Source: Roseomonas sp. (lineage in GTDB: Bacteria; Pseudomonadota; Alphaproteobacteria; Acetobacterales; Acetobacteraceae). Taken from it: 64,000 nucleotides of DNA. Of this stretch, positions 25,320 through 54,578 are shown in pieces. The translations under genes were made by a program, and so were the position numbers. Under the pieces are notes generated by a model. That model was not told the DNA's origin. It did not search any database and was given only the letters and a program-made list of their open reading frames with translations. The stretch's first letter is position 1, and every line of letters starts with the position of its first letter. The stretch lies in the NCBI GenBank assembly GCA_020249925.1, contig JADCER010000005.1, positions 310,001-374,000 on the forward strand, read 5' to 3'.

Positions 25320-25901
25320 ATGATTGATCGGGCGCTCAATTACCTCCGTGAGCAGCTCAATGATCACCTTGCTGCTGCCTCACAAACGGATATTGACGCC
25401 GATCAGAACCATGTTGTTTTTCCCAAGCGGGACAAGCCGGAGCCCGAGTTCAAATTGGGCGCCGTCACATTATTGCTTGCTGGTGTCCAGCATGAACCCA
25501 TACTACGCGCAGCTGATATGCATTTGGCGGCGGGGGCTGACGGCAGTGCTGTTCGTGTCAGCCCTACTCTCCGGCTGCAATTGATGGTGTTGGCCGCGGC
25601 GCGCCACGGCGATTACGCCGAATCCCTCCGCGCATTATCCCTCATCGCGGCTTGGGGCCAGGCGCATCCGGTGATTGACCGCAACACAGCACCCAAGCTT
25701 GACCCAAATATTGATCGCCTAACGCTGGAATTCGTAAGTCTCACGATCACGGAACAGAATGAATTATGGAGCTCCCTCGGAACGGGATATCTGCCGTCTC
25801 TTCTGTATAGGATCAGGGTTCTCGGCTTCGCTAGCGCTATTGGTCAGACCACGCAGCCGATTGCGCAACTTGATCGCATCCTGGTGCGCCATGAAAGTTA
25901 A
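25320..25901 (+). CDS. eCIS DUF4255 protein (Pvc16-like cap/terminator)
   Basis: The ATG at 25320, nine bases after GAGGT, gives 193 aa. The sequence fits the DUF4255 (Pvc16 N-terminal) family: MIDRALNYLREQLNDHL at the start, then FKLGAVTLLLAGVQHEPIL and SPTLRLQLMVLAAARHGDYAE. In PVC/Afp particles this protein caps the end of the sheath and tube. Here it is first in the operon instead of last. It overlaps the next gene by 11 bp. No membrane segment. Confidence 0.8.
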   Translation: MIDRALNYLREQLNDHLAAASQTDIDADQNHVVFPKRDKPEPEFKLGAVTLLLAGVQHEPILRAADMHLAAGADGSAVRVSPTLRLQLMVLAAARHGDYAESLRALSLIAAWGQAHPVIDRNTAPKLDPNIDRLTLEFVSLTITEQNELWSSLGTGYLPSLLYRIRVLGFASAIGQTTQPIAQLDRILVRHES

Positions 25902-26934
25902 GCCGCTTTTTACGCTGCGGGTCACTCATACCCATAAGGGCGCCCGCTTGCCGACAATCTCGGTGTCTGGCGCAACCGCCGCCGTACTTTCAGGGCTTGG
26001 TATGGGGGTAAAGCGCTTGGGTGAAAGCCTCCTCGTTTATGCCGAAACAGATGGCAATGGTGCGACCAGAACAACGCTATCAGGCAAGGTGACGTTGAGA
26101 TTTCTTCTCTCTGAAGTTGATTCGGCTTTCGTGGCACTTACTGATTTGAGCCTCTTCCAGGGTCTCTCGGCACCGCTTTTTTCGAATACCCAAGGCGGAC
26201 TTACCCTTGAGCTGTTGGATCAGACACTGCGTGGCACTGAACAGGTTATCGCCTACCGGGAAGGTCCGCAACGCGTGCTTCTGACGGGGCGCCCGGCGCC
26301 CAAGACGGAGGTATCTGAAATAATAGCGAAAAGCAACAAGGGCCTTGTTGACATTCAAAGCTATGACAGAACCGCAAATGCCGTTGACCTGACTGGTTCA
26401 GGGCTTCAGAAAGGTATCCCCATAGAGCTGGCCTATCCGGTAAAAACGCGACGTCCGATTGGCGCCATGGCCGAGATAGCCATTACTCTTGAGCAGCCTG
26501 ATATCGATACCTGGCTGCGGGAAGGCGGGCGTAATTTTGTGATCCCGTTCGTGGCTAGAAGCGTGCTCTGGTGCTGGTACATTGCCGTACCGCTCGCCAT
26601 TCCCGCCAATTCTGTTGCTGTCACGCTGCCATCAGAATCAAGCCAGTTACGCGGCCTTGCCATTGCGGGCGATCCTGCGGACCTTACGGCAGCACCGGAC
26701 GAAGCTGACCCTCAGGCCAAAATACTCGCTGCCCGCCTTAAGGGCCGACGTTTGCTGCGCTTTCGATCAACCGGACCAGTGATCCTGGACAGTGCCGCAA
26801 TTTCCGGAATTGCCCTCAAGATCGAAGAAAAAACCTGTATCCGGCATCTGCCAAACCCTGCGCCAGAAGCCTTCGGCCAAATTGGCCCACCCGGGCGGCG
26901 TGTGGAAATTCTCCATGCCACGGTGATTGTCTAG
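25891..26934 (+). CDS. Uncharacterised eCIS-operon protein, 347 aa
   Basis: The ATG at 25891 overlaps the DUF4255 gene end by 11 bp, so the two are translationally coupled. I recognise no family. The protein appears beta-rich, without signal peptide, membrane helix or coiled coil; strand-like stretches include FTLRVTHTHKGARLPTISVS and VKTRRPIGAMAEIAITLEQP. Its place between the cap gene and the sheath suggests a structural or assembly role, for instance a cap partner; that is inference only. Confidence 0.65.
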   Translation: MKVKPLFTLRVTHTHKGARLPTISVSGATAAVLSGLGMGVKRLGESLLVYAETDGNGATRTTLSGKVTLRFLLSEVDSAFVALTDLSLFQGLSAPLFSNTQGGLTLELLDQTLRGTEQVIAYREGPQRVLLTGRPAPKTEVSEIIAKSNKGLVDIQSYDRTANAVDLTGSGLQKGIPIELAYPVKTRRPIGAMAEIAITLEQPDIDTWLREGGRNFVIPFVARSVLWCWYIAVPLAIPANSVAVTLPSESSQLRGLAIAGDPADLTAAPDEADPQAKILAARLKGRRLLRFRSTGPVILDSAAISGIALKIEEKTCIRHLPNPAPEAFGQIGPPGRRVEILHATVIV

Positions 26935-27031
26935 AGCCCATGGCGATCATGACACATAACACCATGATTTGCGGAACTTCTCAGCAACCCAGCGCTGCCG
27001 TTGCGGCAGACACCATTCGCAAGAGGCTAAC

Positions 27032-28444
27032 ATGAGCACCTATAGAACCCCTGGCGTATTTGTGGAGGAAATAGCGCTCCTGCCCCCTTCGGTAGCAGAA
27101 GTCAAAAGCGCCGTTCCTGCATTCCTAGGATATACCAAGCTAGGCAAGGGAAAGATCAAACGCATCACAACGATGCTTGAATATGAGGCCATATTTGGCG
27201 GGCCGCCAGAGAGCAAACTGACGATTTCGGAGGGGAAAGACTCAATTCTTTCAGTTGCCCTGACTTCGCAAACTTCCCAGTCTCCTGCCACTCCGCCTGC
27301 AGATCCTGCCACTCCGGCTGCAGATCCTCCCCCCCCGTCACCCTCTGCGAAACCCTTTCCTCCCTTCCTGCTTTATTATTCGTTGCGACACTATTTTATG
27401 AACGGGGGCGGCCCCTGCTGGATTGTATCAGTGGGCAGTTATGAAGACAGCCCCAGCAAGGATCATTTTGTCACTGAACTGAAGTCTCTTGAGCAGCAGG
27501 ACGAGCCAACGATCCTTGTCTGCCCGGACGCAACGCTCCTGGCGCCAGATGATTTCGCAGCAGTATGCAACGAAGTCCTCAAGCATTGTGCGAAATTGAT
27601 GGACCGCTTTGCCGTGCTGGACGTGTTGGGCGGAAACGTAAATGAGTTTCGCAACAAAATCGGTACCTCCAACCTTTCCTATGGGGCTGCATATCACCCC
27701 TATGTCCAGACCGTCCTCAGCCCCATCTATAAGGAATCCGACATCACCGTAGTACCGCTCAAAGCCAATGGCGAGCCAGATAAAACAGACAGTCTGGACA
27801 AAATCAAAACGACCAAGACTGATCTTTATGCGCGCGTGAAGAAAGCCTTAGAAAAGGAGCGAATCACTCTACCGCCTTCTGCGGCAATGGCTGGCATCTA
27901 CTGTTCCGTTGACAGGGATAGGGGCGTTTGGAAAGCACCCGCCAATGTCAGCATGAATGGTGTCATCGCGCCGGTGAAGTTCATCACCGATGAAGAACAG
28001 GGAGACCTCAACATTGACGTGAATGCTGGGAAGTCAATCAATGCGATCCGCGCCTTCACGGGCAAGGGCGTACTTGTATGGGGTTCGCGCACGCTTGCGG
28101 GTAACGACAATGAATGGCGCTATGTACCGGTCCGCCGCTTGTTCATCATGGTCGAAGAATCGGTAAAGAAAGCGAGTGCCTTTGCCGTCTTCGAGCCAAA
28201 TGTCGCCGCCACATGGCTCAAGGTGAAGGGGATGGTCGAAAGCTACCTCTACAGCCTTTGGGAGCGTGGGGCTCTGGCGGGGTCTAAGGCTGAGCAAGCC
28301 TATTTCGTGAATATAGGGCTCGGCAAAACGATGACACCGCAGGATGTTTTGGAGGGGCGCATGATCGTCGAAGTTGGCTTGGCCGCCGTGCGTCCCGCCG
28401 AATTCATCGTACTCCGCTTCATGCATCGCCTGCAGCAGGCCTGA
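27032..28444 (+). CDS. eCIS contractile sheath protein
   Basis: Start at the ATG at 27032 after AGAGG; 470 aa. The N-terminus STYRTPGVFVEEI and VKSAVPAFLGYT is the hallmark of phage and eCIS sheath proteins. The C-terminal part, with INAIRAFTGKGVLVWGSRTL, YVPVRRLFIMVEESVKKASA and LWERGALAG, fits the conserved sheath core. Its contraction drives the inner tube. A Pro/Ala-rich insert (about residues 85-112), containing a tandem heptapeptide, splits the N-terminal half. There is only one sheath gene, whereas PVC and Afp have three. Confidence 0.95.
   Translation: MSTYRTPGVFVEEIALLPPSVAEVKSAVPAFLGYTKLGKGKIKRITTMLEYEAIFGGPPESKLTISEGKDSILSVALTSQTSQSPATPPADPATPAADPPPPSPSAKPFPPFLLYYSLRHYFMNGGGPCWIVSVGSYEDSPSKDHFVTELKSLEQQDEPTILVCPDATLLAPDDFAAVCNEVLKHCAKLMDRFAVLDVLGGNVNEFRNKIGTSNLSYGAAYHPYVQTVLSPIYKESDITVVPLKANGEPDKTDSLDKIKTTKTDLYARVKKALEKERITLPPSAAMAGIYCSVDRDRGVWKAPANVSMNGVIAPVKFITDEEQGDLNIDVNAGKSINAIRAFTGKGVLVWGSRTLAGNDNEWRYVPVRRLFIMVEESVKKASAFAVFEPNVAATWLKVKGMVESYLYSLWERGALAGSKAEQAYFVNIGLGKTMTPQDVLEGRMIVEVGLAAVRPAEFIVLRFMHRLQQA
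27284..27325 (+). repeat. 21-bp tandem duplication inside the sheath gene
   Basis: Two adjacent 21-base units (27284-27304 and 27305-27325) differ by one base and encode PATPPAD and PATPAAD. They form the core of the Pro-rich insert in the sheath protein. In-frame repeats of this kind can change length by slippage. Confidence 0.85.
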
Positions 28445-28471
28445 ACCTAATCAGCCCAAGGAGAATAATCC

Positions 28472-28945
28472 ATGGCCGTCAGCCCATCTGACATCAAGCA
28501 GGCTTATCCCCTGCCAGTGTACAATTACCGTGTTGAAATCGGCGGTGATGCCGTTGCCTTTTCTGAGGTAACAGGCCTGTCGATTTCCCATGAGGTAACG
28601 ACCTTCAAGGAAAGCCCAATAAGCGGGGGCAGCGCCGGCCCACGTGTTTTCCTCATGCCCTCTCAGGCTAAGGAAGCAACGGTGACCCTGAAGAAGGGAT
28701 TTGTACGTACCGAATCTGTCAAGCGTCTTTACAACTGGATCAGTTCCATCGCCCTGAATCAGGTAGAAAAGCGTGATATTTTTGTCCGTCTTTGCGATGA
28801 AGCAGGTGAGCCGGTGATCAGTTGGAAAATCCTGAACGCTTTTCCCGTAAAGCTGGACGCGCCGGGTTTTGATGCGAAGTCGAATGATGTCGCTGTAGAA
28901 ACCATTGAAATGCGCGCGGACCGCGTCATGATCGAGGAAGCTTGA
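28472..28945 (+). CDS. eCIS inner tube protein 1 (gp19 family)
   Basis: The 157-aa protein matches the tail-tube family: YPLPVYNYRVEIGGDAVAFSEVTGLS, then an ATVTLKKGFVRT strand and WKILNAFPVKLDAPGFDAKS near the end. It is the first of three tube paralogues after the sheath. By comparison with PVC (Pvc1, Pvc5, Pvc6), one paralogue should polymerise as the main tube and the others form the tube start near the baseplate; which does which cannot be told here. Confidence 0.92.
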   Translation: MAVSPSDIKQAYPLPVYNYRVEIGGDAVAFSEVTGLSISHEVTTFKESPISGGSAGPRVFLMPSQAKEATVTLKKGFVRTESVKRLYNWISSIALNQVEKRDIFVRLCDEAGEPVISWKILNAFPVKLDAPGFDAKSNDVAVETIEMRADRVMIEEA

Positions 28946-28964
28946 ACGGTGGGGGACATCAGCC

Positions 28965-29414
28965 ATGGCCGAGGCAACCGCGGAACAGCGTAATCGCTAC
29001 CCGCTTCCGACTTACAACTTCCGCGTGAGCATCGGCTCTGCCTTGATTGGCTGCAGCGAAGTGTCTGGCCTTTCCATCGGATATGAGACAACGACCTATC
29101 GCCATGGTCTGAGTACCTGGGAAGGGGAGGAACTGATCCGGTTCAATCGCCCGAAATTCGCGCCCATCACACTCAAAAAGGGCATGGTGATTGGCATGAC
29201 CGCGCTATTGGATTGGCTGAACGGCGATCCTGAGCCGCAACCCATGGAAATCAATCTTTGTGACGCCGAAGGCCTGCCCGCAATCATTTGGCGAATTGCC
29301 AAGGCCGTGCCGGTAAAGCTTGAGGCGCCAACGCTGTCCGCCAGCGCCAATGAGGCAGCTATTGAAACGCTGGAAGTTATGGTCGCCGGTATGCGGCTTG
29401 AGCATGTGGGCTAA
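28965..29414 (+). CDS. eCIS inner tube protein 2 (gp19 family)
   Basis: The 149-aa paralogue of the preceding gene shares YPLPTYNFRVSIGSALIGCSEVSGLS, PITLKKGMVIG and IAKAVPVKLEAPTLSASANE. It lies 19 bp downstream with its own ATG at 28965. Being similar but not identical, it may be a tube-initiation ring protein (Pvc5/Afp5-like) or the main tube. Confidence 0.9.
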   Translation: MAEATAEQRNRYPLPTYNFRVSIGSALIGCSEVSGLSIGYETTTYRHGLSTWEGEELIRFNRPKFAPITLKKGMVIGMTALLDWLNGDPEPQPMEINLCDAEGLPAIIWRIAKAVPVKLEAPTLSASANEAAIETLEVMVAGMRLEHVG

Positions 29415-29417
29415 ACA

Positions 29418-29861
29418 ATGACCTTGCCACTCTCCTCGCGCTTCGCGGTCGTTTTTTTTGCGCTAGGTGTGGTTCCAAACCCTATAGATTTGCGTTTTCA
29501 GCGAGTGAGTGGGCTTTCGGCGAGCATTTCAACCGTCACTGTGCGTGAAGGCGGACAACAGCTTTATACGCACCGTCTGCCTGACATGGTGTCCTACGAA
29601 AACCTTGTACTTGAACGTGGTTTCATGGTGGGTTCTCCGCTGAATATTGAATTTAATGTGGCCTTCTCGCTCATGAAATTCGCGCCATCCAACGTCATGA
29701 TAACGCTGTTGAACGAAGATGCTGTGCCAATTGCGGGTTGGATGTTCGTGCAAGCCTTCCCCGTGCGTTGGGCTACTGCCGATTTGGATGCATCACGTGA
29801 TGAGGTTCTGATCGACACTTTGGAACTGGCCTATACTCGTATGCAAGCGATCAGGATTTAG
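29418..29861 (+). CDS. eCIS inner tube-like protein 3 (gp19 family)
   Basis: The 147-aa protein is the most divergent of the three, with RFAVVFFALGVVPNPIDLRF replacing the usual start, yet keeps FQRVSGLSASISTVTVREGG, YENLVLERGFMVG and the end VQAFPVRWATADLDASRDE, the same final motif as the other two. It fits a Pvc6/Afp6-like adapter between tube and hub. It starts three bases after the previous stop. Confidence 0.85.
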   Translation: MTLPLSSRFAVVFFALGVVPNPIDLRFQRVSGLSASISTVTVREGGQQLYTHRLPDMVSYENLVLERGFMVGSPLNIEFNVAFSLMKFAPSNVMITLLNEDAVPIAGWMFVQAFPVRWATADLDASRDEVLIDTLELAYTRMQAIRI

Positions 29862-29865
29862 TCCC

Positions 29866-30024
29866 GTGCCCGTTGTCATTCAGGAATTGGTTGTTCGGGT
29901 TATCGTGGAAGACGGCAACACGCCGCAAACACCATCAGCGCCTACCACGATGGATCACAGCGCCATTGTTGAAGCTGCCGTGCAGGAAACATTGCGCGTA
30001 CTACGCCGGGAGCAGGAGCGGTAA
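29866..30024 (+). CDS. DUF5908-family microprotein of the eCIS operon
   Basis: A GTG at 29866 opens 52 codons between the third tube gene (4 bp before) and the LysM hub gene (2 bp after), so the frame fills the gap almost exactly. The protein begins PVVIQELVVRVIVEDG and ends in a charged helix (QETLRVLRREQER). The opening PxxIxELxxRVxV pattern is that of DUF5908, a small family repeatedly found in eCIS loci at this place. Role unknown. Confidence 0.75.
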   Translation: MPVVIQELVVRVIVEDGNTPQTPSAPTTMDHSAIVEAAVQETLRVLRREQER

Positions 30025-30026: not shown

Positions 30027-30728
30027 ATGGAGTTCCCCGATAGCTTCAAACTGACAAAGCTGAAGATCGAGGCTTTCGATAAGGCAGAGCGTATACTACC
30101 AGCGAAGAAGACGTTCTACGCGCTGTTTAACCCCGAGTCTCTTTCGCATGAGTTTTCACGATCCTTCGCAGTGGCCCAAGATGTTAATGGTTCCACACAA
30201 TCGCCAAAGGCGGGCCAAGTCCAACCAAGTACTTTGAAGCTAAAGCTAATTCTTGATGGTAGTGGCGTTTCGGAGATGGGCGTTTTTAATACCTTCGAAC
30301 CCGCAAAACCCTCAGTCGACGAACAGATCGAAGAGTTTCTCGTATTGGCCTATGACATCAATGGCGCTATCCATCAGCAAAACTTTCTTATTTTGAGTTA
30401 CGGGAATATCAACGTAAACTGTCGACTGAGTCGGGTGACGGTCAATCAGCAGTCCTTCAACCGACAGGGCCGTACGACGCGCGCCGAACTCGACATTGAA
30501 TTGGTACATGATTTATCGGCTTCTGATGAAGCCAAAAGAATACACTTTACCTCACCCGATGTATCTCACACGCTTACCGTACGCGCCGGCGATACGCTTC
30601 CGCTGCTGACTGAGCAAGTGTATGAGTCTGATAGACATCATCTGGCAGTTGCGCGTTTCAATGGGCTTGATCATTTGCGATCCGTTGATCCGGGCGTGAT
30701 CTTGCGCTTTCCGCCTTTGGCGCGATGA
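30027..30728 (+). CDS. eCIS hub/tube-initiator protein with LysM domain (Pvc7-like)
   Basis: The 233-aa protein opens with KLTKLKIEAFDKAERILPAK and FYALFNPESLSHEFS, the standard start of the CIS tube/LysM family, and ends with a LysM-like unit (SHTLTVRAGDTLPLLTEQVY through DPGVILRFPPL). Pvc7/Afp7 joins the tube to the spike and baseplate. It is followed after 7 bases by the spike gene. Confidence 0.9.
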   Translation: MEFPDSFKLTKLKIEAFDKAERILPAKKTFYALFNPESLSHEFSRSFAVAQDVNGSTQSPKAGQVQPSTLKLKLILDGSGVSEMGVFNTFEPAKPSVDEQIEEFLVLAYDINGAIHQQNFLILSYGNINVNCRLSRVTVNQQSFNRQGRTTRAELDIELVHDLSASDEAKRIHFTSPDVSHTLTVRAGDTLPLLTEQVYESDRHHLAVARFNGLDHLRSVDPGVILRFPPLAR

Positions 30729-30735: not shown

Positions 30736-32385
30736 ATGTCGGGCTACACCTACACCATCATGATTGCAGGACAGCCGGTGGATATCGGGACCCCTATCGC
30801 GGCCATGGATGTACTGGTTGAGGTGAATCGCATTCCCCGCGCTTCTATTGTCTTTGGTGAGACTTTTGATCCCTCAACGCAAAACTGGAAGCTGGCCGAC
30901 ACCAATCAAATGGGCGTGGGTAAGGCAATTGAACTTCTGGCCCGTGATGCGGCGGGAACCGAGATAAGCCTCTTTAAGGGCGTCATCCACCGCCTCTCGC
31001 TTGAAGTTCGTGCGGGGGGGGCAACACTCAGTCTTGAAGCCTTCGCAGGGGCGCAACGCCTCACGCAAGGAAGGCGCAGTACCAGCTTCGCCGACACGAC
31101 CGACATTGATGCCATTCGCAGCATTGTTGAGGGTGCTGGACTGACTTTGAAGAGCGCGGAGGCACCTTCTGGCGCACCGAAGCACGAGACTTTAGTGCAG
31201 CATGATTGCACCGATTGGGATTTCATCCTGTCGCGCGCCGATGCCATTGGATTGCTTGTCATGGCCGAACAGGACACGGTCAGCCTGACGCGCATGCAGA
31301 TCGCAGCGGGGGCCGGCGCGAAGCTGGAATTCGGACGAACAACTATTCTGGAAGCTGCGCTTGAATTTGATGGAACCGGCCAACATCCGGCCGTGGAAGC
31401 ATGTGCCTGGGATGTGTCTCAATTGGCGCCCGCATCACCCGCAGCGGCAAATGATCCCGGTGCAGCACAAGGAACGGAGGCCCCAGGGCAGATCGGAAGC
31501 GCCCTCAAGCTGCCGGATTTACGGCTTACGCATCCCGGGATACTCCCTTCGGAGGAGCTTCAGGTTTGGGCCGATGCACGGCTTCAGCGCAGGCGTCTTG
31601 CCATGGTTCGCGGAAGGCTCTCCTTGCCGGGAACTGGTGATTATAAGCCGCTTGATGTGCTGGAAATATTGCGCGCTGGTGCCAGCTTCAGTGGCCGCGC
31701 CCTGATCACTGGCATAAGACACCGAATCACGCCGGCACTTTGGCGCACAGATCTGCAGCTTGGTCTGCCTTCAACACCAGCCATTGAACTGATACGGCTC
31801 CAGGCGCCTGCGGCTGCGGGCCTGCTACCCGCGGCATCGGGCCTGTACCTCGGCGTCGTGGCTGCCTTTGAGGAGGATCCGCAGGGCGAGTATCGCCTGC
31901 GCATCAGCCTTCCCTTGCTAGGTGAGGGTGAGCGCGGGTTGCTCTGGGCGCGACTGGCAACAACAAGCGCAGGCCCCAAAGCTGGCCATGTCTTCAGGCC
32001 CTCCGTTGGTGATGAGGTGGTTGTCGGCTTTCTTGGCGATGATCCGCGTCAGCCTATCGTGCTTGGTGCATTGCACAGCAGCAAAAATGCGCCGGATGGA
32101 GATTTTGAAATACCTTCAGAGGAAAACCTGCATAAGGGCATCCTGCTCTCCAGCGGTGCGGCACTTGCGTTCCGGGATGAGGATGGAAAGCCCGCGGCTA
32201 CCTTGCGTACCAAGCGCGGCGTGTTCACGATTGATGATGATACGAAGACGCTGACACTAGAGGATGAGGACGGGAATAGCCTTACCCTGACTAGTGATGG
32301 CATTACGATCAAGTCGGCCAAGGATTTGGTCTTGGAGGCAAGCGGCAAGGTCACGATCAAGGGGCAGGAGGTCGAGATCGCATGA
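30736..32385 (+). CDS. eCIS spike protein (VgrG/Pvc8-like)
   Basis: The 549-aa protein has a gp27-like phage late control D region (about 1-340, with VQHDCTDWDFILSRADAIGL), an OB-fold gp5-like region (about 370-455, GLYLGVVAAFEEDPQGEYRL and FRPSVGDEVVVGFLGDDPRQ, then PIVLGALHSSKNA) and a C-terminal beta-prism with repeating SLTLTSDGITIKSAKDLVLE strands. It forms the trimeric spike under the tube. It overlaps the gp25 gene by 4 bp (ATGA). Confidence 0.94.
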   Translation: MSGYTYTIMIAGQPVDIGTPIAAMDVLVEVNRIPRASIVFGETFDPSTQNWKLADTNQMGVGKAIELLARDAAGTEISLFKGVIHRLSLEVRAGGATLSLEAFAGAQRLTQGRRSTSFADTTDIDAIRSIVEGAGLTLKSAEAPSGAPKHETLVQHDCTDWDFILSRADAIGLLVMAEQDTVSLTRMQIAAGAGAKLEFGRTTILEAALEFDGTGQHPAVEACAWDVSQLAPASPAAANDPGAAQGTEAPGQIGSALKLPDLRLTHPGILPSEELQVWADARLQRRRLAMVRGRLSLPGTGDYKPLDVLEILRAGASFSGRALITGIRHRITPALWRTDLQLGLPSTPAIELIRLQAPAAAGLLPAASGLYLGVVAAFEEDPQGEYRLRISLPLLGEGERGLLWARLATTSAGPKAGHVFRPSVGDEVVVGFLGDDPRQPIVLGALHSSKNAPDGDFEIPSEENLHKGILLSSGAALAFRDEDGKPAATLRTKRGVFTIDDDTKTLTLEDEDGNSLTLTSDGITIKSAKDLVLEASGKVTIKGQEVEIA

Positions 32386-32798
32386 GCGACATTGCGGATT
32401 TTCTTGGTCGCGGCTGGTCTTTTCCGCCCAGTTTCTCCCCAGATGGCGCGGAGATTGAAACGGTCGCCGGCCCAAAAGATATTCAGGAAAGTCTTTGTAT
32501 CCTATTCTCCACTGAACCGGGAGAAAGGGTCATGCGCAGCGATTACGGCTGCGGACTCCAGCCACTGGTTTTTGCCGAAATGGACCAGGAACTTGTAACC
32601 ACATTGCGCGACCAGGTTACGAGGGCCGTGCTGATGCACGAACCTCGCATAGCGCCCGAGCGTGTTGATGTTTCTGATGATCCGAACCAGCATGGTGTAT
32701 TGCTTGTCTCGCTTACCTACAGCATCCGGGGCAGCAATTCACGCTACAATCTCGTCTTTCCATTCTATCTGCGCGAAGCCAGCGCAATATTACGATAA
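32382..32798 (+). CDS. Baseplate wedge protein, GPW/gp25 family (Pvc9-like)
   Basis: The 138-aa protein has the gp25 core: ETVAGPKDIQESLCILFSTE, PGERVMRSDYGCGLQPLVF and LMHEPRIAPERVDVSDDP, with the EPR motif that binds sheath in the baseplate. It starts the baseplate-sheath contact. Length is normal. Overlap of 4 bp with the spike gene. Confidence 0.95.
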   Translation: MSDIADFLGRGWSFPPSFSPDGAEIETVAGPKDIQESLCILFSTEPGERVMRSDYGCGLQPLVFAEMDQELVTTLRDQVTRAVLMHEPRIAPERVDVSDDPNQHGVLLVSLTYSIRGSNSRYNLVFPFYLREASAILR

Positions 32799-39558: not shown

Positions 39559-39768
39559 ATGACAACCCCAGCCCCCACCCTCCGTGATCAAATGAATGAG
39601 CGCCTTGAAAAGCTCCGTGCCGAATTCGCACGTGGGCAAGAAAGGCTCTCCCAATTGGAAGCGGAAGCGGCGCAGCTGCGCCAGACCATGCTGCGCATCT
39701 CCGGCGCCATTCAGGTGCTGGAAGAAGAACTGGGCGCCAAAGCCCCGGACGCTGCTGGCGATGGCTGA
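39559..39768 (+). CDS. Small coiled-coil protein of the eCIS operon
   Basis: The 69-aa protein is one long charged helix with heptads (LRDQMNERLEKLRAEFARGQ and LSQLEAEAAQLRQTMLRISG) and no membrane segment. Its stop overlaps the next gene by 8 bp. It could be a chaperone or trimerisation partner for the fibre just upstream, but no family is recognised. Confidence 0.65.
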   Translation: MTTPAPTLRDQMNERLEKLRAEFARGQERLSQLEAEAAQLRQTMLRISGAIQVLEEELGAKAPDAAGDG

Positions 39769-46847: not shown

Positions 46848-49800
46848 AGGCGGCTGCACCCGCCCTGCCGCAAAGGGCTGTACAGCGCCCCGTCCCCGCG
46901 CGTACCGCGGAACGGCGAACAACGGCCCAGCCAACACGCCAGGTGGCGCAATCGCCCCCACAGGCGGCGCGCCCCTCCCCCGCCCCAGTCTTGAGCGGTG
47001 GGGCTAGCTTGCGCGTGCGTGCCAAGCTTGTGGTCGGCGCCCCCAACGATCCGGCCGAAGTCTCCGCTGACCGTTTTGCCGCACAAACGGTACGCGCGCT
47101 ACCCAGTAATATCGCCAGCGCTGGTGCGATGGCCCGACGCGACCCTAGCCCGGCCATTCCCTTGGGGTCTTCATTGCTCAGGCGTGAACCGGCGCGCGCC
47201 GGCGGCGTTGGCGTTCCCGATGCCATGGCGCCCGCCATCCGCGATGCAACTGAGGGCGGGCACCCTATGCCTGCATCGCTCCGCGATCGCTTCGAAAGAG
47301 CAACGGGGCGTGACCTATCCGCAGTGCGTTTGCGTCATGACCCGGCAGCAGCCCAGACCGCCAAGGCCTTGGGTGCCCGGGCCTATACGCGTGGCAGCAC
47401 CATTGTTTTCGCGCATGGCGAATACGCACCCGAAACGGGTATCGGCGCCAGCCTTCTGGCCCATGAGCTTGCGCATGTGGCGCAAATCGGCGCAGCGCCG
47501 CCATTGGAAACAAGCGTAGCTCAACCGCGTGCCCCGCCGACAGCCGAAATGATCCACCGCGCGCCAAATGATGCGGGTAGCACCGGCTTTCTCGGCAGCG
47601 TTGTGGACCAGGCCCTCAGTCTTTTGCCGGATGTTTTTGCGAATACGCTGCGCGGGATCCGTCGCGCCGGAGGCTTGTTGCCTTGGCTTGGCGGCTTGAT
47701 CCGTGATGGCGTCAAGTCAGTCTTGACCACTATCGGGGACTCAAGCCCCGCCTTGGCGGAAGCGATTGCCGCAATCGGAAGCATCGGTGGCCGAGTTTCT
47801 GCGATCCTAGGCGCCTTGGCTGGCGGGGATTGCGAACCGCTCTTTACTGCGCTCGAGCAATTGAAGACCACCATCCAGGACGCCGCAGGCGATGCCTGGG
47901 CTAAGCTGACCGAATTCCTGAAACCGGTCGGTGATTTCCTGGACAACATCAATACGCGTTTCCTGGCCCCCGCAATTGATACCGTGAAGGGCCTTGCCGG
48001 CTCCGCTTGGGAGCGCATTCAGCAATTGGCCGGCGATCTGTGGGATCTGACCCAGCCGGTGCGGGAATTTGGCAGCTGGGCTTGGCGTGAACTCAAACGC
48101 TGGATCGGCCTTGGGGAGGAAACGGATTCTGGCGGCAATGAATCCGGCGGCATTCTTGGCTGGTTGAAGATCAAGGCGAATGAGGTTTGGACCACACTGA
48201 AGGAAGCCGCCGAACCGGTATTGCGCCCACTGCGGGAAGTCGCAAAGGGTGTGTCCGCTTACCTGCCCCTCAATGCCATCAAAATCATCAAGACCAAGGC
48301 AGCCGCCTGGCTTGAGCATACCGCCGCGGGCATGAATGCGCTTCATGCCCCCGCAACAACGGGTAGCGCCGCCGGGCAGCAGACCCTGCGCGGCGTATTG
48401 TTGCCCGCAGTGATCGGCGCGATCGCTGGCCTCAGAGAAAGCGCAAATGGCGCCGCAAACTGGGTTGCCGAGAGCATTGGTTCCCTTGGCGGCAATGTCA
48501 CCGCCTTCCTGGGCAGCATGACCGAGCACCCGATATTCGCAGCGATGGCGGGCGGCCTGGCATGGCTGCGTGGTGCAGCGGTGCGCGCGACACTTTTCGC
48601 CAATAATATGGTGCGTGGCGCCTTTGGCTTGATTGATCAGGGATTGGCTACCTTTGGTAGCTTCATTCAGCGCATGCTGGATGGCCTTATCCAGGTGGCA
48701 GATACGGTGCTTGACTTGCCGGGGCGTTTTGGCGCGCTGGTCCTTGGGCCCGTATGGAACGCCATTCCAGCCTGCATTCGTAACCCTGTGATGGATTTCA
48801 TCACCAAACAAATCCTGGGCCGCCTTCCGGTGTTTTCCTCGCTCATGCAGGTTCCGGATTTCTGGGAGAAATGTCAGGCCACGGCGATGCGAATCATCCG
48901 CACCATTTTCGCGGATGGCAATATCATGGGCGGTATCTTCACCTTCTTCTGCGCCATGCTGGATCTGATCGGGCTACCCTCGCAATTGGTCACCTCAATC
49001 ATTGCCAAAGCGGCAACAGCACTCTCGGATATCCTAAAGGATCCGATTGGCTTCCTCATCAATCTGCTTAGCGCCGTAAAGAGCGGGTTTGGGCTGTTCT
49101 TCGACAATATAGGGACCCATTTGCTGGGCGGAGTTGCCGGCTGGCTCTTTGCTGAGGTGCAGAAAGCTGGGCTGACGCCGCCCGCGGAATTGAGCCTTGG
49201 GGAGGTTTTCCGCTTCACGCTGGACGTGCTGGGACTTGGCCTGGAGTTCTTCATAGCCCGCGTTGAAAAAATCAGCCCGGCTGCAGGCAACATGCTGCGC
49301 ACTGGCGCCGCCATCATTGGTGAAGGGCTGGAATGGCTGACTGATCTGGTAACCGAAGGCCCGGCTTCCCTTTGGCGTCATTTGCAGGATTCACTCTCTG
49401 ACCTTTGGGAGGCTGCTATCGGTGCTGTAGTCGGCTGGGTCAGCACCCAAGTGACCAAGAAAATGATCCCGCGCCTATTGGCCATGCTGGATCCCACGGG
49501 CATCGGTGCCGTCGTAAACAGCCTGATCACCTTCTATAACGCCATGCAGGCTGCAGTCGAATACCTGCAGCCAATGCTTGAGATCGTGCATAGTGTAGTT
49601 GATGGTATCGGCCAGATCGCGCAGGGTGCCTTGGAAGGTGGCGCAGTATTTGTCGAAGGCGCATTGGCGCGCAGTGTGCCTATAGCGGTCGGCTTCCTGG
49701 CTCATCAGGTTGGCCTTGGTACCCTTGGCAAGCGCATTGCCGAAACAATCGAGGCATTACGCGAGAAAATCGCCACTGCCGTTGATAAATTGCTGGAGCG

Positions 49801-50746
49801 CAGCAAGGCCTTTTTGATGCGTATTGGCAGCGCAATTGGCAATTGGTTCGCGGGGCTGACAAAGAAGGTTGATAGTGACGATGGTGGACATACGCTGCTG
49901 TTCAAGAGGGAAGGTGATCGACCGGTACTCAAGATTCGAAGTGTTGAGCAAAGTGTTGGGGATTTCCTCGACGCTGCAGCTTCCAATGACAAAGTCAAAC
50001 AGGACTCAGAACGGCAGAAATTAATGACGGACGCGAAGGCCCTGGTTAAAGAGATCAATCAAGATGCGACCACCTGTGACAAGGCAGGTGACAGTGAGAA
50101 ACCGAACCTGCAGAAGAAGATATCCGAGAATGAAGAAAAATTAGCGAAAATGATTCAATCGATTCTAAAGGGCGTCTCGATAAGTGACTTCGATGAACGT
50201 TATAAGCTTGAGGGTATGGTTGCAACATACGGAGCGTTGAACGATCTACAAAGCGGAGACGACATGGAAGCTGACCATCAGCCACAGGCCTCTCTCTTAA
50301 AATACGCCGCGAACCTGCCAGCGTTCAAATTTCGCGAAATAGAAAACACGAAAGACGAGGTATATGTGTTAAGGAAGGCTATCGGTGGGAAACGCGCTGA
50401 TGGAGCCCTTGCAATCAATTTACACAAGAATCGTCATAAGGCGGGCCGAACATGGTTCTATAAAAGTAATACAACAGACGTTTTGCCGGCCGCCAAAGCA
50501 GCTGTTAATAGCGAAGCGAAGGCGCATTCGGAGGACTACCCTTCACAAAGGAAGGCAATCATTAAGGTATTCCGCGATCATTTGGGTAAAGATGTTGAGG
50601 TGATGCGTAAGGCGCTGAACGAGCCCATTAATTCCAATGTCTGGCAGGACATAAAGAGCGAGGATCAACGCGGAAAAATCATAAAACAGGTCCGCAACGG
50701 TCTCAGTAAGATGGAAGGCCAAGATCTGAACAAATACGAGAATTAA
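46844..50746 (+). CDS. DUF4157 eCIS cargo protein with candidate C-terminal nuclease
   Basis: The 1300-aa protein has a disordered Pro/Ala/Arg-rich N-terminus (1-55), the motif NDPAEVSADRFAAQTVRAL (68-86) and a DUF4157 domain (about 138-215) with intact HELAH (207-211). DUF4157 is common in eCIS effectors. Residues about 240-1010 are amphipathic, Trp-containing helices in loose repeats (LPWLGGLIRDGVKSVLTT). The tail, about residue 1015 to the end, is hydrophilic. EADH (1142-1145) and HKNRH (1194-1198) look like an HNH-type metal site. The DNA from about 49,880 on is lower in GC, suggesting a swapped toxin tip. Nuclease function is inferred. Confidence 0.8.
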   Translation: MKAAAPALPQRAVQRPVPARTAERRTTAQPTRQVAQSPPQAARPSPAPVLSGGASLRVRAKLVVGAPNDPAEVSADRFAAQTVRALPSNIASAGAMARRDPSPAIPLGSSLLRREPARAGGVGVPDAMAPAIRDATEGGHPMPASLRDRFERATGRDLSAVRLRHDPAAAQTAKALGARAYTRGSTIVFAHGEYAPETGIGASLLAHELAHVAQIGAAPPLETSVAQPRAPPTAEMIHRAPNDAGSTGFLGSVVDQALSLLPDVFANTLRGIRRAGGLLPWLGGLIRDGVKSVLTTIGDSSPALAEAIAAIGSIGGRVSAILGALAGGDCEPLFTALEQLKTTIQDAAGDAWAKLTEFLKPVGDFLDNINTRFLAPAIDTVKGLAGSAWERIQQLAGDLWDLTQPVREFGSWAWRELKRWIGLGEETDSGGNESGGILGWLKIKANEVWTTLKEAAEPVLRPLREVAKGVSAYLPLNAIKIIKTKAAAWLEHTAAGMNALHAPATTGSAAGQQTLRGVLLPAVIGAIAGLRESANGAANWVAESIGSLGGNVTAFLGSMTEHPIFAAMAGGLAWLRGAAVRATLFANNMVRGAFGLIDQGLATFGSFIQRMLDGLIQVADTVLDLPGRFGALVLGPVWNAIPACIRNPVMDFITKQILGRLPVFSSLMQVPDFWEKCQATAMRIIRTIFADGNIMGGIFTFFCAMLDLIGLPSQLVTSIIAKAATALSDILKDPIGFLINLLSAVKSGFGLFFDNIGTHLLGGVAGWLFAEVQKAGLTPPAELSLGEVFRFTLDVLGLGLEFFIARVEKISPAAGNMLRTGAAIIGEGLEWLTDLVTEGPASLWRHLQDSLSDLWEAAIGAVVGWVSTQVTKKMIPRLLAMLDPTGIGAVVNSLITFYNAMQAAVEYLQPMLEIVHSVVDGIGQIAQGALEGGAVFVEGALARSVPIAVGFLAHQVGLGTLGKRIAETIEALREKIATAVDKLLERSKAFLMRIGSAIGNWFAGLTKKVDSDDGGHTLLFKREGDRPVLKIRSVEQSVGDFLDAAASNDKVKQDSERQKLMTDAKALVKEINQDATTCDKAGDSEKPNLQKKISENEEKLAKMIQSILKGVSISDFDERYKLEGMVATYGALNDLQSGDDMEADHQPQASLLKYAANLPAFKFREIENTKDEVYVLRKAIGGKRADGALAINLHKNRHKAGRTWFYKSNTTDVLPAAKAAVNSEAKAHSEDYPSQRKAIIKVFRDHLGKDVEVMRKALNEPINSNVWQDIKSEDQRGKIIKQVRNGLSKMEGQDLNKYEN

Positions 50747-50927: not shown

Positions 50928-52604
50928 ATGCTGACGATCGAAAATCTTTCTGGTGCTTTTCTGAGCGTCCTGATCGGAAACCTATGTCTGATCGCATTGC
51001 TCGGCGCTTTGGTGCTTGCTGCCTATCGCCGCCGGATTAGGGCACTCATGCGGGGCGGGGACAGCATTGCGGTCCCCCTGCCGGCGGAAAGACCCGGTCA
51101 GACCAAGCTGCGCTTCGCGACCATAGAACCCCAGCAAAACACTCAAACAAGGTCCGCAGCACGAGACATGCCCCTCGCCGTCTTCGCCATTGAGCTTTTT
51201 GGCGGAGTCTGCTTTGCGATGCTCGCCGCCTTGCTCTGGCTAAAATCATCGGGCAGCCCCATCCTTCCAATGCGTCTTTTCGCTTTAACTTTGACGTTTC
51301 TTCTACCCGTTTTGGTGGTTATCGCGCTTCTGGTTGGTCCTGACCGACGCAAGCAATCGCTCCTCCTGCTCGGAGCTTTTGTTGTTTTCATCATCTTCGG
51401 CGCTATCTTGGTGCTACGGCAGCCAGATGATGGACTAATGGTGCTTTCGCAGATTCTATTTTATGTCATCATCAGAATTGGTGGCACGGCATTCGCGCCA
51501 CTTCTTGGCCTTTTCAATCGAAGTCTGCGTGCACTATGGCCCATTCTACTCATGCTCATTTTCCTTTCTACCCTTGGAATTCTCGCGCAATTGGCATTGA
51601 GGTCCATGTTTCTCGAGCAAATGGACCACCTTTATGTGTCGGCAGCGACATCAATAGGCTTGGGTGTACGAACCGCTCTTGTATTAGCGCACCTCCCAGG
51701 ATTTCTCCTTGGCATCATGCTTTCATGGCTGCTCATCGCACGCCTTGCTGCCTGGCACCATCAAGGGCGCCTCGGTGATCAGGCTCTCCTGCACAACGCC
51801 GTCTGGGGTGCAGCCAGTCTCAATTTGTTTCTCTGGCTGTTCGTAAGTTTCCGTCCCGCGACACTATTCGATATTGTTGAGATTTTTGCGCTAGCCTGCC
51901 TTCCACTGCTGATTTATCTGGGTATCACCAAAATCGGCTATTACTTCCTCTACAGGAAGGTACATTCCATACTAGGCAGGCCGCTGCTTTACCTCCGCGT
52001 CTTCGGCTATTCGCGCCGCGCCTCACGCCTCGCAGATCTTTTGCGTGCACGTTGGCGCTACCGGGGTTCGCTCAGGCTAATTGCAGCGCGAGATCTGGCT
52101 AGCCGTGTGATCACACCCGTTATGTTGCGTGCCTTCCTTTTGCGACGCCTTAGAGAGTTTTTCATCGGGACGGAAGCTGATCTTGAACAAAAAATAGCGT
52201 CTCTCAGAACCAGTCGTGACCCGGACGGTAGCTTCCGGACCGAATTGCTATTCTGCAATGGTGGAAGCTGGCGAGAGACTGTAAGGCGACTGATGACGGA
52301 TAGTCATGGTGTTGTTATGGATCTACGTTCCTTCAATCGGCAGAATCGCGGCTGCGTCTTTGAATTGCAGACACTAGTCGATTTTGTGAGTGTCTCCCGC
52401 ATTATGCTAATTGTGGACTCGCGCCCAGGTCCGGCTCAGACTGATATAATTTTTCTGCAGGAAATCATGACGGAAGCTTGGGCGCATCTTGCGGTAACCT
52501 CACCCAATCATGCAATCGCCGATCCTGTACTCCGATTGGTTGACGCCGCAGCGGGCGATGCCAAGGCGGTAGGCTTCATTATCCAGGAATTGGAGGCGCT
52601 TTAG
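50928..52604 (+). CDS. Polytopic membrane protein with large cytosolic C-terminal domain, unknown family
   Basis: The ATG at 50928 has GGAAAGG seven bases upstream; 558 aa. About nine membrane segments lie in residues 8-345, for example LCLIALLGALVLAAY and LFALTLTFLLPVLVVIALLV. Residues 350-558 are soluble, opening with LYLRVFGYSRRASRLADLLR and with a Rossmann-like alternation around HGVVMDLRSFNRQNRGC and VSRIMLIVDSRPG. I have no secure family; a TIR- or SLOG-like nucleotide-binding fold is a guess. It follows the cargo gene with a 181-bp gap in which I see no gene. Confidence 0.7.
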   Translation: MLTIENLSGAFLSVLIGNLCLIALLGALVLAAYRRRIRALMRGGDSIAVPLPAERPGQTKLRFATIEPQQNTQTRSAARDMPLAVFAIELFGGVCFAMLAALLWLKSSGSPILPMRLFALTLTFLLPVLVVIALLVGPDRRKQSLLLLGAFVVFIIFGAILVLRQPDDGLMVLSQILFYVIIRIGGTAFAPLLGLFNRSLRALWPILLMLIFLSTLGILAQLALRSMFLEQMDHLYVSAATSIGLGVRTALVLAHLPGFLLGIMLSWLLIARLAAWHHQGRLGDQALLHNAVWGAASLNLFLWLFVSFRPATLFDIVEIFALACLPLLIYLGITKIGYYFLYRKVHSILGRPLLYLRVFGYSRRASRLADLLRARWRYRGSLRLIAARDLASRVITPVMLRAFLLRRLREFFIGTEADLEQKIASLRTSRDPDGSFRTELLFCNGGSWRETVRRLMTDSHGVVMDLRSFNRQNRGCVFELQTLVDFVSVSRIMLIVDSRPGPAQTDIIFLQEIMTEAWAHLAVTSPNHAIADPVLRLVDAAAGDAKAVGFIIQELEAL

Positions 52605-52818
52605 CACGCCGTTGTGGCAGCCAGGTCTATAGTGCCGCAGATGGAAACGACTGGCACTTCTTGCCTGTAATGAGCACCTCCTACTGATCATATCCTTCAG
52701 AGCATCATTCTCAATGAGCCAATCGGGCACTGATACCACACGGTGCAGGAATTGACTTGCGGAATGTGGCGCCCTGGCAATATCCTTCATCTGCACCCTG
52801 CAACGAACGGAGAAGGCG

Positions 52819-53649
52819 ATGCTTTCATTTGATCGGCTTAAACTTCTCTTTCCACGCGCGCAGGCAGAACATCTTGCGTCCATAGCCGAATTGGGCGACG
52901 CATTGCTGGATGGCTTCAAGGTCTCGCGCAAGCCATTGCGTTGGCAGTTCTTTCTCGCACAGATGGCTCATGAATCTGGTGGGCTTTCAATGCTTGAGGA
53001 AAACCTGAACTACCGCGCCGAGAGTATTTTTAAGACCTGGCCGACGCGCTTCCCATCAATTGCGGATTCCGAACCATTCGCCCGCAGCCCAGAAAAGCTG
53101 GCCAACCGGGTCTATTCCGATAGAATGGGCAATGGCTCTTCCGAAACGGGGGATGGCTGGCGCTTCAGGGGCCGAGGGTACATTCAATTGACTGGACGGG
53201 ATGCCTATCGAAAGGTTGGCACCATCACCGGTTTGGATCTTGAAGCCCAACCGGAATTGGCGCTGGATCCTGAGCATGCCTTTCATGTAGCCTGCGGCTT
53301 CTGGAGCTGGAAGAAGCTCAATGATACCTGTGATACGGGTGATTTTCTTGCTGTGACCAAAATCATCAATGGCGGTACGCATGGCCAGACGGATCGGGAG
53401 GCTTGGTTGGACAAGGTTCGTCGTGTTTTCGCCGATCCTCTTCCCGTGCACGAACAGCCACCAGCCGACGAGGTAATTGCGGTTCAACGCGCATTGCAAT
53501 TGAAAGGCTATACCCAAATTGGGGCAGCCGATGGGGATTTAGGGCCGCGCACCATAGCGGCCGTCACGAGCTTTCGTATCAAGACCGGGCTGCCCAAGGG
53601 CCTTATTGACGCGAAGCTTCGGCAGGCACTGGGTATCACTAAGCGCTAG
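52819..53649 (+). CDS. GH19 endolysin with peptidoglycan-binding domain
   Basis: The 276-aa protein has a glycoside hydrolase 19 domain (about 1-195): AQMAHESGGLSMLEENLNYR with the catalytic Glu at 52, GDGWRFRGRGYIQLTG and FWSWKKLNDTCDTGD, FLAVTKIINGG. Residues about 205-270 form a peptidoglycan-binding unit (VQRALQLKGYTQIGAADGDL, TIAAVTSFRIKTGLP). GH19 enzymes in phages split peptidoglycan glycan strands. There is no signal peptide, so release needs a holin or lysis. GGAGAAGG lies before the ATG. The 214-bp gap before it (52605-52818) holds no gene that I can support. Confidence 0.92.
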   Translation: MLSFDRLKLLFPRAQAEHLASIAELGDALLDGFKVSRKPLRWQFFLAQMAHESGGLSMLEENLNYRAESIFKTWPTRFPSIADSEPFARSPEKLANRVYSDRMGNGSSETGDGWRFRGRGYIQLTGRDAYRKVGTITGLDLEAQPELALDPEHAFHVACGFWSWKKLNDTCDTGDFLAVTKIINGGTHGQTDREAWLDKVRRVFADPLPVHEQPPADEVIAVQRALQLKGYTQIGAADGDLGPRTIAAVTSFRIKTGLPKGLIDAKLRQALGITKR

Positions 53650-53663
53650 AGGAGAATCTGCAG

Positions 53664-54578
53664 ATGCCATCGCCATCCTTACTTGAAACGAAGTGGCAGA
53701 TCGCGCGGCGCTGGGCCGCAGAGGCGAGGCAGCAGCAAGCGAGCCATACCCGTCAGGCCAGACTTGCATTGGGGTTTGCTGTAGCGGCTGCTGTTTCGGG
53801 CGCATTCGCAGCAGTGATTAACATGGAAGGAACGGAAGGTTCGCCGTTTTCTCTGTCAGGCCTTTTTGCGCTGATCGCGGGCGCCGCAGCCGCCATGAGT
53901 ACTTTTTTTGGCCGGCATATACTGAGTGAACGGTCGCAAGCAAAATGGATCGTTGCGAGGGCTACGGCCGAAAACCTCCAGTCAGAATGCTATAAATTCG
54001 CCGCAAAAATCGGCACTTATGCGGATTCCAAAATTGAGGCCGCTAAATCATTCGATACGCGAACGAATGAACTTGTGGCCGCAGCAAGGGAAAAGGGAAT
54101 CGAGCCCCCGGCGAAGGCAGTCTCCTCTTCCTCCCGACTGGCGCCGACGGAGGGTATGTCTGCAGAATGGTATGCCGAGAATAGGCTTGCGCAGCAGAAG
54201 GATTGGTATGTTTCACGGAGTGAAGAACACCGGAATAAGGCAAGATTAGCGCAGAGATTGGGCTTGGTGTTTGGGATCTTGGCAGCCCTGCTTGGTTTCC
54301 TCGGCAGTGTTACGCAGGGTTGGCTTTCCATCACCCCCTTTGTTGGTGCGACGACAACGATTGCGACGGCTGTTGCTTTATTCGCTTCAGTGGATCGCCA
54401 TGTATTTTTGGCCAGCAGTTATGGCGGCTACGCTGAGGCGATTGGAAGTTTACTCGCGCGGTTTGGGGAAGGCTTGGTCAGGGAAGAGGAGTTGGTCGTG
54501 GAAGGCGAAACGCTGCTTACTTCCGAATATGCCGCCTGGGCAGCGCGTATGACCATGGCACCAAATCAACCTGAATGA
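53664..54578 (+). CDS. DUF4231/SLATT-type membrane protein
   Basis: The 304-aa protein has AGGAG before the ATG and two hydrophobic pairs: about residues 34-52 and 64-82 (LGFAVAAAVSGAFAAVI, FALIAGAAAAMSTFF), and about 200-217 and 222-245 (LGLVFGILAALLGFLGS, TTIATAVALFASVD). They are linked by charged helices (WIVARATAENLQSECYKFAA, EEHRNKARLAQRLGL). This fits DUF4231, part of the SLATT two-helix group that is thought to form pores in some defence systems. Beside the endolysin it could act as a holin, or it could protect from the cargo. Confidence 0.72.
   Translation: MPSPSLLETKWQIARRWAAEARQQQASHTRQARLALGFAVAAAVSGAFAAVINMEGTEGSPFSLSGLFALIAGAAAAMSTFFGRHILSERSQAKWIVARATAENLQSECYKFAAKIGTYADSKIEAAKSFDTRTNELVAAAREKGIEPPAKAVSSSSRLAPTEGMSAEWYAENRLAQQKDWYVSRSEEHRNKARLAQRLGLVFGILAALLGFLGSVTQGWLSITPFVGATTTIATAVALFASVDRHVFLASSYGGYAEAIGSLLARFGEGLVREEELVVEGETLLTSEYAAWAARMTMAPNQPE

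Follow-up and report, generated by a model that had tools for sequence, protein, structure and literature searches.

Among the contractile injection systems described so far, those of Algoriphagus machipongonensis (AlgoCIS) and of the Anabaena thylakoid stand closest to the extracellular contractile injection system (eCIS) analysed here. As far as the available text of the AlgoCIS papers goes (PMC8894135, PMC13314943), AlgoCIS combines a short cap protein (Alg16A, 197 aa, as against 293 aa for Pvc16; PMC8894135) with a cap adaptor that is lost on firing (PMC13314943), a plug, a Cis11 that carries the spike cage (residues 278-643 of Alg11), and Cis12. An Ig-bearing protein is bound to Cis12, and a DUF4157 protein serves as cargo; the fibre is carried on the Alg12 C-terminus (PMC13314943), and Alg19, of 1443 aa, includes a shoulder domain. 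The thylakoid-anchored system of Anabaena, in the accessible part of its description (PMC8894136), has a bipartite cap (Cis16A and Cis16B), the plug Cis6, a transmembrane Cis13, and a Cis12 (All3315) of 1335 aa with a 490-residue extension. PVC and Afp, on the other hand, have multiple sheath proteins, and their cap is a single piece of 293-295 aa.

Results

The window, by which we mean the whole stretch of 64,000 nucleotides analysed and to which all position numbers refer, carries a complete eCIS gene set at 25320-50746. It comprises 19 genes on one strand (+), a 69-aa ORF included, and is followed by three accessory genes that reach 54578, which agrees with the roughly 22 same-strand genes counted in a first-pass annotation. 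All the parts named there (cap, sheath, tubes, hub-spike, gp25, tip, baseplate, fibre, tape measure, AAA+ and DUF4157 proteins) are indeed present on the + strand and at the coordinates given there, the start of the second baseplate gene excepted, and the gene calls bear out its reading of one sheath gene with the cap gene first. We conclude, with a probability of roughly 0.86, that these genes encode a horizontally acquired and complete eCIS of the Anabaena/AlgoCIS plan. Parts were assigned by family matches, and by sequence or fold we recognise a single sheath, a cap with its cap adaptor, the plug family, a cage-bearing Cis11, a short Cis12, a fibre, a tape measure, an AAA+ protein and a DUF4157 cargo.

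The set opens with a short cap protein of the Cis16A/Alg16A type (193 aa; 25320-25901, Pvc16_N E 1.4e-20), followed by a 347-aa protein (25891-26934). The latter, listed in the first-pass annotation as the first of two unknowns, is the cap adaptor known from AlgoCIS and Anabaena (Cis16B/Alg16B), as identified by family profile and fold. As a single query it has no match in the PDB and its identification requires the profile, of whose 18 rows 11 were added by position and not by match to the window protein. The single sequence gave no match to the genome contigs or the plasmid collection searched, and an adaptor-sized ORF between cap and sheath is missing in 5 of 22 relatives. A short cap with a separate adaptor is what characterises the AlgoCIS/Anabaena type. 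The sheath that follows (27029-28444) is the only sheath match in the genome, and among solved sheaths it is closest to All3325 of Anabaena (E 2.9e-120) and then to that of AlgoCIS (2.8e-114). The window system shares a common eCIS core with PVC and Afp, through its sheath, Cis11 and Cis12 matches, but differs from their type in its one sheath and in a split cap that is encoded first.

Three gp19-type tube proteins come next (28472-28945, E 1.4e-33; 28965-29414, E 3.6e-22; 29418-29861, E 7.2e-27). Before Cis7, at the Cis6/Alg6 position, lies a 52-aa DUF5908 protein (29866-30024, PF19265 E 6.8e-11), which we take, by its position, to be the Alg6/Cis6 plug; a small plug in this place is again a trait of the AlgoCIS/Anabaena type. 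Plug-like short ORFs occur in 12 of the 13 relatives checked, and none was found in L023, where the gap inspected was the one after the adaptor. The tail end is completed by a CIS tube/LysM protein of the Cis7 type (30027-30728, CIS_tube E 6.5e-31), a single 549-aa hub-spike protein of the Cis8/VgrG type (30736-32385, Phage_base_V 4.5e-20), the gp25-like sheath initiator Cis9 (32382-32798, E 1.6e-24) and the spike tip Cis10 (32813-33247, CIS_spike_tip E 8.4e-49).

The baseplate wedge protein Cis11 (1433 aa; 33282-37583) matches Alg11 at E 1.1e-102, and its best stretch, 648-1375, aligns on 282-999 of the Alg11 chain, which covers the spike cage. The family matches of the gene set also include Baseplate_J (1.7e-7). 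In the slot after Cis11 lies a tail fibre of 623 aa (37634-39505), whose shaft matches 8ond (1.4e-6) and 8ojn (1.2e-5); relatives also show fibre matches in this place, unlike AlgoCIS as described in the available text, which has no such separate fibre. The second wedge protein, Cis12 (661 aa; Alg12 E 2.3e-50, All3315 5.5e-49), was present as annotated, but its gene spans 39764-41749 and does not start at 39596, a position occupied by the 69-aa ORF (39559-39768). This ORF is a possible small coiled-coil gene with a 61% identical counterpart at the same place in L037 and none seen in six other relatives checked; its Pfam matches to ANG-1, DAHL, HrpB7, SlyX and others fall below the cut-offs and are read as coiled-coil noise. 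Both the plug gene and this coiled coil had been overlooked before. Downstream of Cis12 are a 600-aa Ig-like rod (41754-43556), the tape measure (43558-45447, CIS_TMP E 2.3e-74), an AAA+ ATPase of the Cis15/Pvc15 type (45441-46847, E 1.7e-25) and the cargo gene (46844-50746), which encodes an eCIS core (DUF4157, E 8.9e-26), a long linker and a C-terminal domain at about 1040-1300.

Sheath, tube, hub-spike, gp25, Cis11, Cis12, tape measure and AAA+ thus occur in one cluster, and CIS_TMP, CIS_tube, the spike tip, Pvc16_N and the eCIS core are CIS-specific families. Tail folds are common to all these systems and a tRNA end lies at the island junction, yet a remnant contractile-tail prophage or a T6SS is practically out of the question. 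A scan of flank genes reaching about 6 kb out on either side, some of which match no family, showed no capsid or terminase family, and IcmF_C (TssM), the one T6SS membrane-complex family searched, is absent from the whole genome, a control search in E. coli being positive. The first-pass view that this is neither a T6SS nor a prophage therefore holds.

The cluster sits on a genomic island of about 30 kb (24764-54848) that is missing from the sister genome G015. In blastn against the sister (L062), the last strong match on the left stops at 24628 and is followed by a weaker piece of 172 bp (76%) up to 24763; on the right, the flank matches again from 54849 onwards, 70 bp past the weaker piece. 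The island has a GC content of 0.565 against 0.630 and 0.599, and at its right edge lies a tRNA-Thr(TGT) 3' end (54825-54863, +), of which 39 bp are identical to an intact tRNA in the sister (L064); an intact tRNA-Thr copy is present on the genome's own contig C22. A comparison of 24601-25320 with 54501-55000 showed no 11-mer in common. Since the adaptor is found in none of 34 other genomes of the genus, CIS_TMP occurs in only 4 of 385 genomes of the class (own included), and the sister is without the island, the eCIS is, on these genome comparisons, judged to be horizontally acquired. The accessory genes on the island encode a 558-aa membrane protein with 8 hydrophobic segments (50928-52604), which matches no Pfam, NCBIfam or PADLOC family and has no plasmid match, a GH19-like/peptidoglycan-binding enzyme that is a candidate lysis gene (52819-53649; Glyco_hydro_19 5e-5, below cut-off, and PG_binding_1 6.9e-5), and a SLATT/DUF4231 membrane protein (53664-54578, SLATT_1 1.7e-15); none of them matches in the relatives' stretches searched.

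The gene order, which had been called unusual, turned out to be common to several phyla. From cap, adaptor, one sheath, tubes, plug, LysM tube, hub-spike, gp25 and tip to Cis11, fibre, Cis12, Ig rod and tape measure, it recurs in Rhodospirillales, Myxococcota, Cyanobacteriota and Bacteroidota. Prado228 and bog_933 (Rhodospirillales), Minicystis, Sorangium, Plesiocystis and Cyanobium share this order between cap and Ig rod, and on as far as the tape measure in contigs long enough to include it; in Minicystis and Sorangium the AAA+ gene lies upstream and divergent. A cap match upstream of the sheath is present in 20 of 22 relatives, covering four phyla (five, should L020 be correctly labelled as Williamsia). 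The locus numbers of Anabaena, to the extent that its description gives them, likewise place the adaptor before the sheath and imply a Cis11-Cis13-Cis12-Cis19 run, which matches the slots of the window.

Consequently, the first-pass claim that this bacterial group has a distinct eCIS lineage has to be corrected, and we regard such a lineage as very improbable. It draws some weight from the adaptor, which has only three close proteins, the window's own included, among the best 7997 candidates scored in the protein search. Against it stand the recurrence of order, adaptor and Ig rod in other phyla, the absence of the adaptor from the congeners and the sister without the island. The search for the same order in related genomes that the annotation had proposed did find it, but across phyla. 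In our own quick trees of sheath and hub, the neighbours of the window system are those of Rhodospirillales, Geminicoccaceae and Myxococcota; the support is weak, and none of the starred sets includes the window system.

Discussion

With the new-lineage claim corrected and both former unknowns named, as cap adaptor and as Ig rod tied to Cis12, the system as such is an ordinary one, and its points of interest are the putative Ig arm and the cargo domain. In the mechanism that we propose, the tape measure would determine how long the tube-sheath tail on the spike-bearing baseplate becomes, the cap would close the tube, and the adaptor would clamp the last sheath ring and so lock the extended state. 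The AAA+ protein may help the loading of the DUF4157 cargo, and particles would exit by lysis, for which the GH19-like enzyme is a candidate. Fibre and Ig-rod protein, the latter carried by Cis12 at its outer end, would contact the target, upon which cage and baseplate would open, the sheath contract and the adaptor be lost. The tube would then deliver the cargo; the likeness of its C-terminal domain to an HNH-type metal nuclease is confined to a motif.

Could the particle instead be retained, working from a membrane anchor or within the cytoplasm like those of Anabaena thylakoids, T6SSiv or Streptomyces? The closest solved sheath is a thylakoid-anchored one, and a membrane protein of eight segments lies on the same island. 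The latter has no match in the relatives' stretches searched, however, and a simple hydropathy scan, at the threshold chosen, detects no hydrophobic segment in the fibre, unlike the transmembrane Cis13 (PMC8894136, available text). Furthermore, because Cis12 has 661 aa as against 1335, it has no room for the 610-1100 extension described for Anabaena. The two traits of a thylakoid-anchored system are thus lacking, and retention of the particle appears decidedly unlikely; we favour release.

The 600-aa protein, the second of the former unknowns, is predicted to consist of beta sandwiches and a single helix at the N-terminus, modelled with low confidence, and to have no 200-aa shoulder (AF2, pLDDT 80). 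It has no sequence match in the PDB, and by fold it matches generic Ig/FN3 structures. Rod and Cis12 form one ORF in 8 of the 15 relatives tested, spanning three phyla (the fusion is seen in cyanobacteria, bog_933 and Plesiocystis), while in the window the rod has a gene of its own. Its N-terminal part was detected in the genomes of 17 of 21 relatives; no rod was detected in two of these genomes, nor in G317, an eCIS from the same class that is less closely related. Given the fused ORFs, the protein is very probably an arm at the outer wedge end, the place of the fibre in AlgoCIS, and can be encoded separately or fused to Cis12; it would parallel the Ig-bearing protein bound to Cis12 in AlgoCIS.

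A counterpart of the AlgoCIS fibre Alg19 or the Anabaena crown Cis19, that is, a homotrimer with its shoulder domain docked on the Cis12 C-terminus, is a possible though rather unlikely reading. According to the parts of the descriptions available, Alg19 has Ig-like folds and binds the Alg12 C-terminus, and all3315 (cis12) and all3314 (cis19) are neighbours by their numbers, which is the slot of the rod. However, no Cis19 homologue is detectable by sequence in the window system: a 15-row profile of the rod retrieved no All3314 chain from the PDB at E up to 10. The predicted rod also lacks the shoulder of the 1443-aa Alg19, and a fused ORF means one rod per Cis12, against an Alg19 trimer per vertex. 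The absence of 7b5h among the 50 matches listed in either rod fold search excludes nothing. A further candidate, the "wide connector" with which Cis12 extends to the thylakoid, was set aside since that extension is given as Cis12 residues 610-1100 (PMC8894136, available text), while in the fused protein the Cis12 segment that precedes the rod still shows a weak alignment (i-Evalue 14) to the end of All3315 (1155-1256). This segment also aligns to residues 731-840 of Alg12 (i-Evalue 0.067).

Keeping to the arm on Cis12, we give even odds to a broader view, in which a widespread eCIS class has a separable Ig-domain arm, replacing or standing beside the AlgoCIS fibre-docking tail, with a conserved N-terminal motif, a variable number of Ig-like domains, and a gene that was joined to cis12 or separated from it on several occasions; baseplate reach or target sensing would depend on the arm. 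If the arm is real, many catalogued eCIS may have, in addition to the fibre, another surface element that has escaped notice, with a bearing on the particles' target choice.

As for the cargo, its eCIS core contains a HELAH motif at 207, and the HNH-like character of the C-terminal domain refers to a DH...N...H pattern, no Pfam HNH family being listed for this end at E up to 1. The 260-residue domain, which is without a Pfam name, makes a candidate for a new eCIS effector family. In its alignment, 15 columns are invariant in 82/82 rows, and 66 of the 81 proteins in which it occurs also carry a DUF4157/eCIS core domain.

Results and discussion

The extracellular contractile injection system (eCIS) at window positions 25320-50746 is real and complete, and an ordinary representative of a known eCIS kind. 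A first-pass annotation had taken it for a distinct lineage; the system that it described is indeed real and complete, but its standing as a new lineage was wrongly read. What raises the cluster above the routine is a proposed separable Ig arm, together with an unnamed domain in the cargo. The ORF table and Pfam scans recover every component that had been named, all on a single strand and in the positions assigned to them, with hub and spike combined in a single 549-aa protein. Two ORFs had been overlooked. The first encodes 52 aa (29866-30024; DUF5908 match, E 6.8e-11) and occupies the place of the Cis6/Alg6 plug, which we take DUF5908 to be from its position. A similar ORF is present in the examined gap of 12 of 13 relatives, the exception being L023, for which this gap was the one after the adaptor. 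The second encodes a 69-aa coiled coil (39559-39768); L037 has a counterpart 61% identical to it, and none was seen in six further relatives checked. Cis12, which comes next, accordingly begins at 39764.

The gene order, with the cap before the sheath, had been called unusual, a view that did not survive comparison with 22 relatives obtained from a genome scan with the window sheath. In 20 of these, a cap match precedes the sheath; L016 has no cap match, and L023 (Geminicoccaceae) has its cap after the tubes. Further downstream, the order Cis12 (39764-41749), 600-aa Ig rod (41754-43556), tape measure recurs in seven of nine stretches, the remaining two (L038 and L043) not reaching that part, and again in L061. 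Such an order is therefore common. Judged by the locus numbers of six genes, from the adaptor onward, Anabaena has the order of the window as well: All3326 (adaptor), All3325 (sheath), All3317 (Cis11), All3316 (Cis13), All3315 (Cis12) and all3314 (Cis19). In G317, a genome of the same class with a more distant eCIS (L066, L067), the cap likewise precedes the sheath, and the adaptor, the tip and the Ig rod gave no match there. The sheath aligns in one piece in nine of the 22 relatives, in two pieces in 12 and in three in L012. We read the two-piece alignments as a putative single gene with an insert; in L014 and L020 both pieces fall within one ORF. The three consecutive sheath-like pieces of L012 (10001-13234; a Flavobacteriales bin) possibly represent more than one sheath gene.

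Among solved structures, the window sheath is closest to Anabaena All3325 (E 2.9e-120), followed by AlgoCIS (2.8e-114) and the 9r9h sheath (4.7e-106), with those of PVC and Afp more distant. Cis12 is likewise closest to its AlgoCIS (2.3e-50) and Anabaena (5.5e-49) counterparts. The shaft repeats of the 623-aa fibre (37634-39505) match the solved proteins 8ond (bd2133) and 8ojn, presumably Bdellovibrio fibres. Cis11 is closest to Alg11 (1.1e-102), and its best-aligned stretch spans the AlgoCIS spike-cage part, as delimited in PMC8894135.

Quick trees of the hub-spike protein (21 rows) and the sheath (24 rows) both put the window near Rhodospirillales, Geminicoccaceae and Myxococcota rows, with weak support around it and several long end branches. 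None of the starred sets in either tree includes the window, and its place is not fixed by them. The hub tree also groups L020, labelled Williamsia (Actinomycetota), with Fluviicola (Bacteroidota) at an SH-aLRT of 100, a sign that the bin may be mixed or wrongly labelled.

The AlphaFold2 model of the Ig rod (pLDDT 80) consists of a low-confidence N-terminal helix and a chain of beta sandwiches, its fold matches being generic Ig and FN3 rods; searches against PDB sequences, including one with a 15-row profile, gave no match. With this profile, 19 of the 21 genomes of relatives gave a match to the rod, which in 17 includes its N-terminal part. In G438 the match runs from position 38 onward, with Ig-like repeats elsewhere, G439 shows late stretches only, which may be cross-matches, and G436 and G437 gave none. 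Among 398 genomes drawn from the phylum, the own genome was the only one with a match among the candidates scored, those of the first look being partly scored. The rod's length in relatives ranges from ~415 to ~1100 residues. In Polyangia, one long ORF holds what looks like a tandem duplication, both in L042 (12158-15430; 1091 residues read) and in L105 (open frame 1096, matched twice).

Of 15 relatives with both genes at hand, eight carry Cis12 and the Ig rod as one uninterrupted reading frame. Six of the eight are cyanobacterial (one of these at a contig edge), and the others are L103, a Rhodospirillales bin, and L104, Plesiocystis. In the remaining seven relatives, as in the window, the rod has a frame of its own. 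No paper on such a fusion was noticed in the literature searched, mostly outside subscription journals. The end of Cis12 that precedes the rod in the fused protein aligns weakly with Alg12 731-840 (i-Evalue 0.067) and All3315 1155-1256 (i-Evalue 14). Because the rod follows the end of Cis12 in the fusions, and the Alg19 fibre of AlgoCIS is attached to the C-terminus of Alg12 (PMC13314943), we propose that the rod would sit at the wedge's outer end. There it may be the counterpart of Cis19/Alg19, or else an arm different from it. A fibre-anchor catalogue (PMC12923769) distinguishes five anchors. One of them, the crown type, is a domain of ~200 aa; no such domain was seen in the Ig rod model.

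The 1300-aa cargo (46844-50746) carries an eCIS core domain with HELAH, and a C-terminal domain of ~260 residues (1040-1300) that is unnamed and found in 81 proteins, 66 of which also carry the eCIS core domain in precomputed Pfam assignments. One of these, P0015, is identical to the cargo across this domain. All 82 rows agree in fifteen columns, among them D1144, H1145, N1192, R1197 and H1198, an invariance partly built in, as the rows were gathered by similarity to the domain itself. The resulting pattern, DHQPQ...N...RH, resembles that of HNH enzymes, and Pfam HNH families gave no match at E up to 1.

The presence and likeness of these parts are shown here, and the operating steps are deduced from AlgoCIS and PVC. 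By that analogy, the particle would assemble and then be locked by the adaptor (347 aa, 25891-26934), cargo loading would be aided by the AAA+ protein (compare Pvc15, PMC11495950), and lysis would release the particle. The fibre and Ig rod would then bind the target, upon which sheath firing would deliver the cargo. We favour extracellular release, because the fibre and Cis12 seem to be without thylakoid-anchoring parts.

The adaptor was not found in any of 34 other genomes of the genus, nor in 24 other genomes of the class drawn alongside, some of them incomplete; CIS_TMP occurs in four of 385 class genomes, the own one included, three of them above cut-off. In the sister genome G015, the strong left-flank match stops at window 24628 and a weaker 172-bp piece extends to 24763. 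The right-flank match restarts at 54849, lying there 70 bp past the weaker piece and 1.1 kb past the strong match, and this genome lacks ~30.1 kb of the window. Three other sisters match on the right flank and not on the left within the stretch examined, with L065 stopping almost at the junction; the site is therefore variable or lies outside these stretches. The island has a GC of 0.565 versus 0.630 and 0.599. At its right edge, the 39 bp at 54825-54863 show no difference from the 3' end of the tRNA-Thr(TGT) that sister G008 carries intact. The own genome has an intact tRNA-Thr on contig C22, where its end recurs about 8.4 kb away (~92072-100524), with an integrase match (99115-99597) between the two, as an integrative element would be arranged; the island itself gave no integrase match.

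Three genes beyond the cargo (50928-54578) belong to the same block missing from G015, and encode a membrane protein with eight hydrophobic segments, a GH19-like enzyme and a SLATT protein. No match to them was found in the relatives' stretches searched, and a lysis or effector set is possible. Immediately to the left of the island, and outside it, a stretch that matches the sister genome encodes a TerB-DnaJ protein (22558-23328) as well as an N-acetylmuramoyl-L-alanine amidase (23333-24010).
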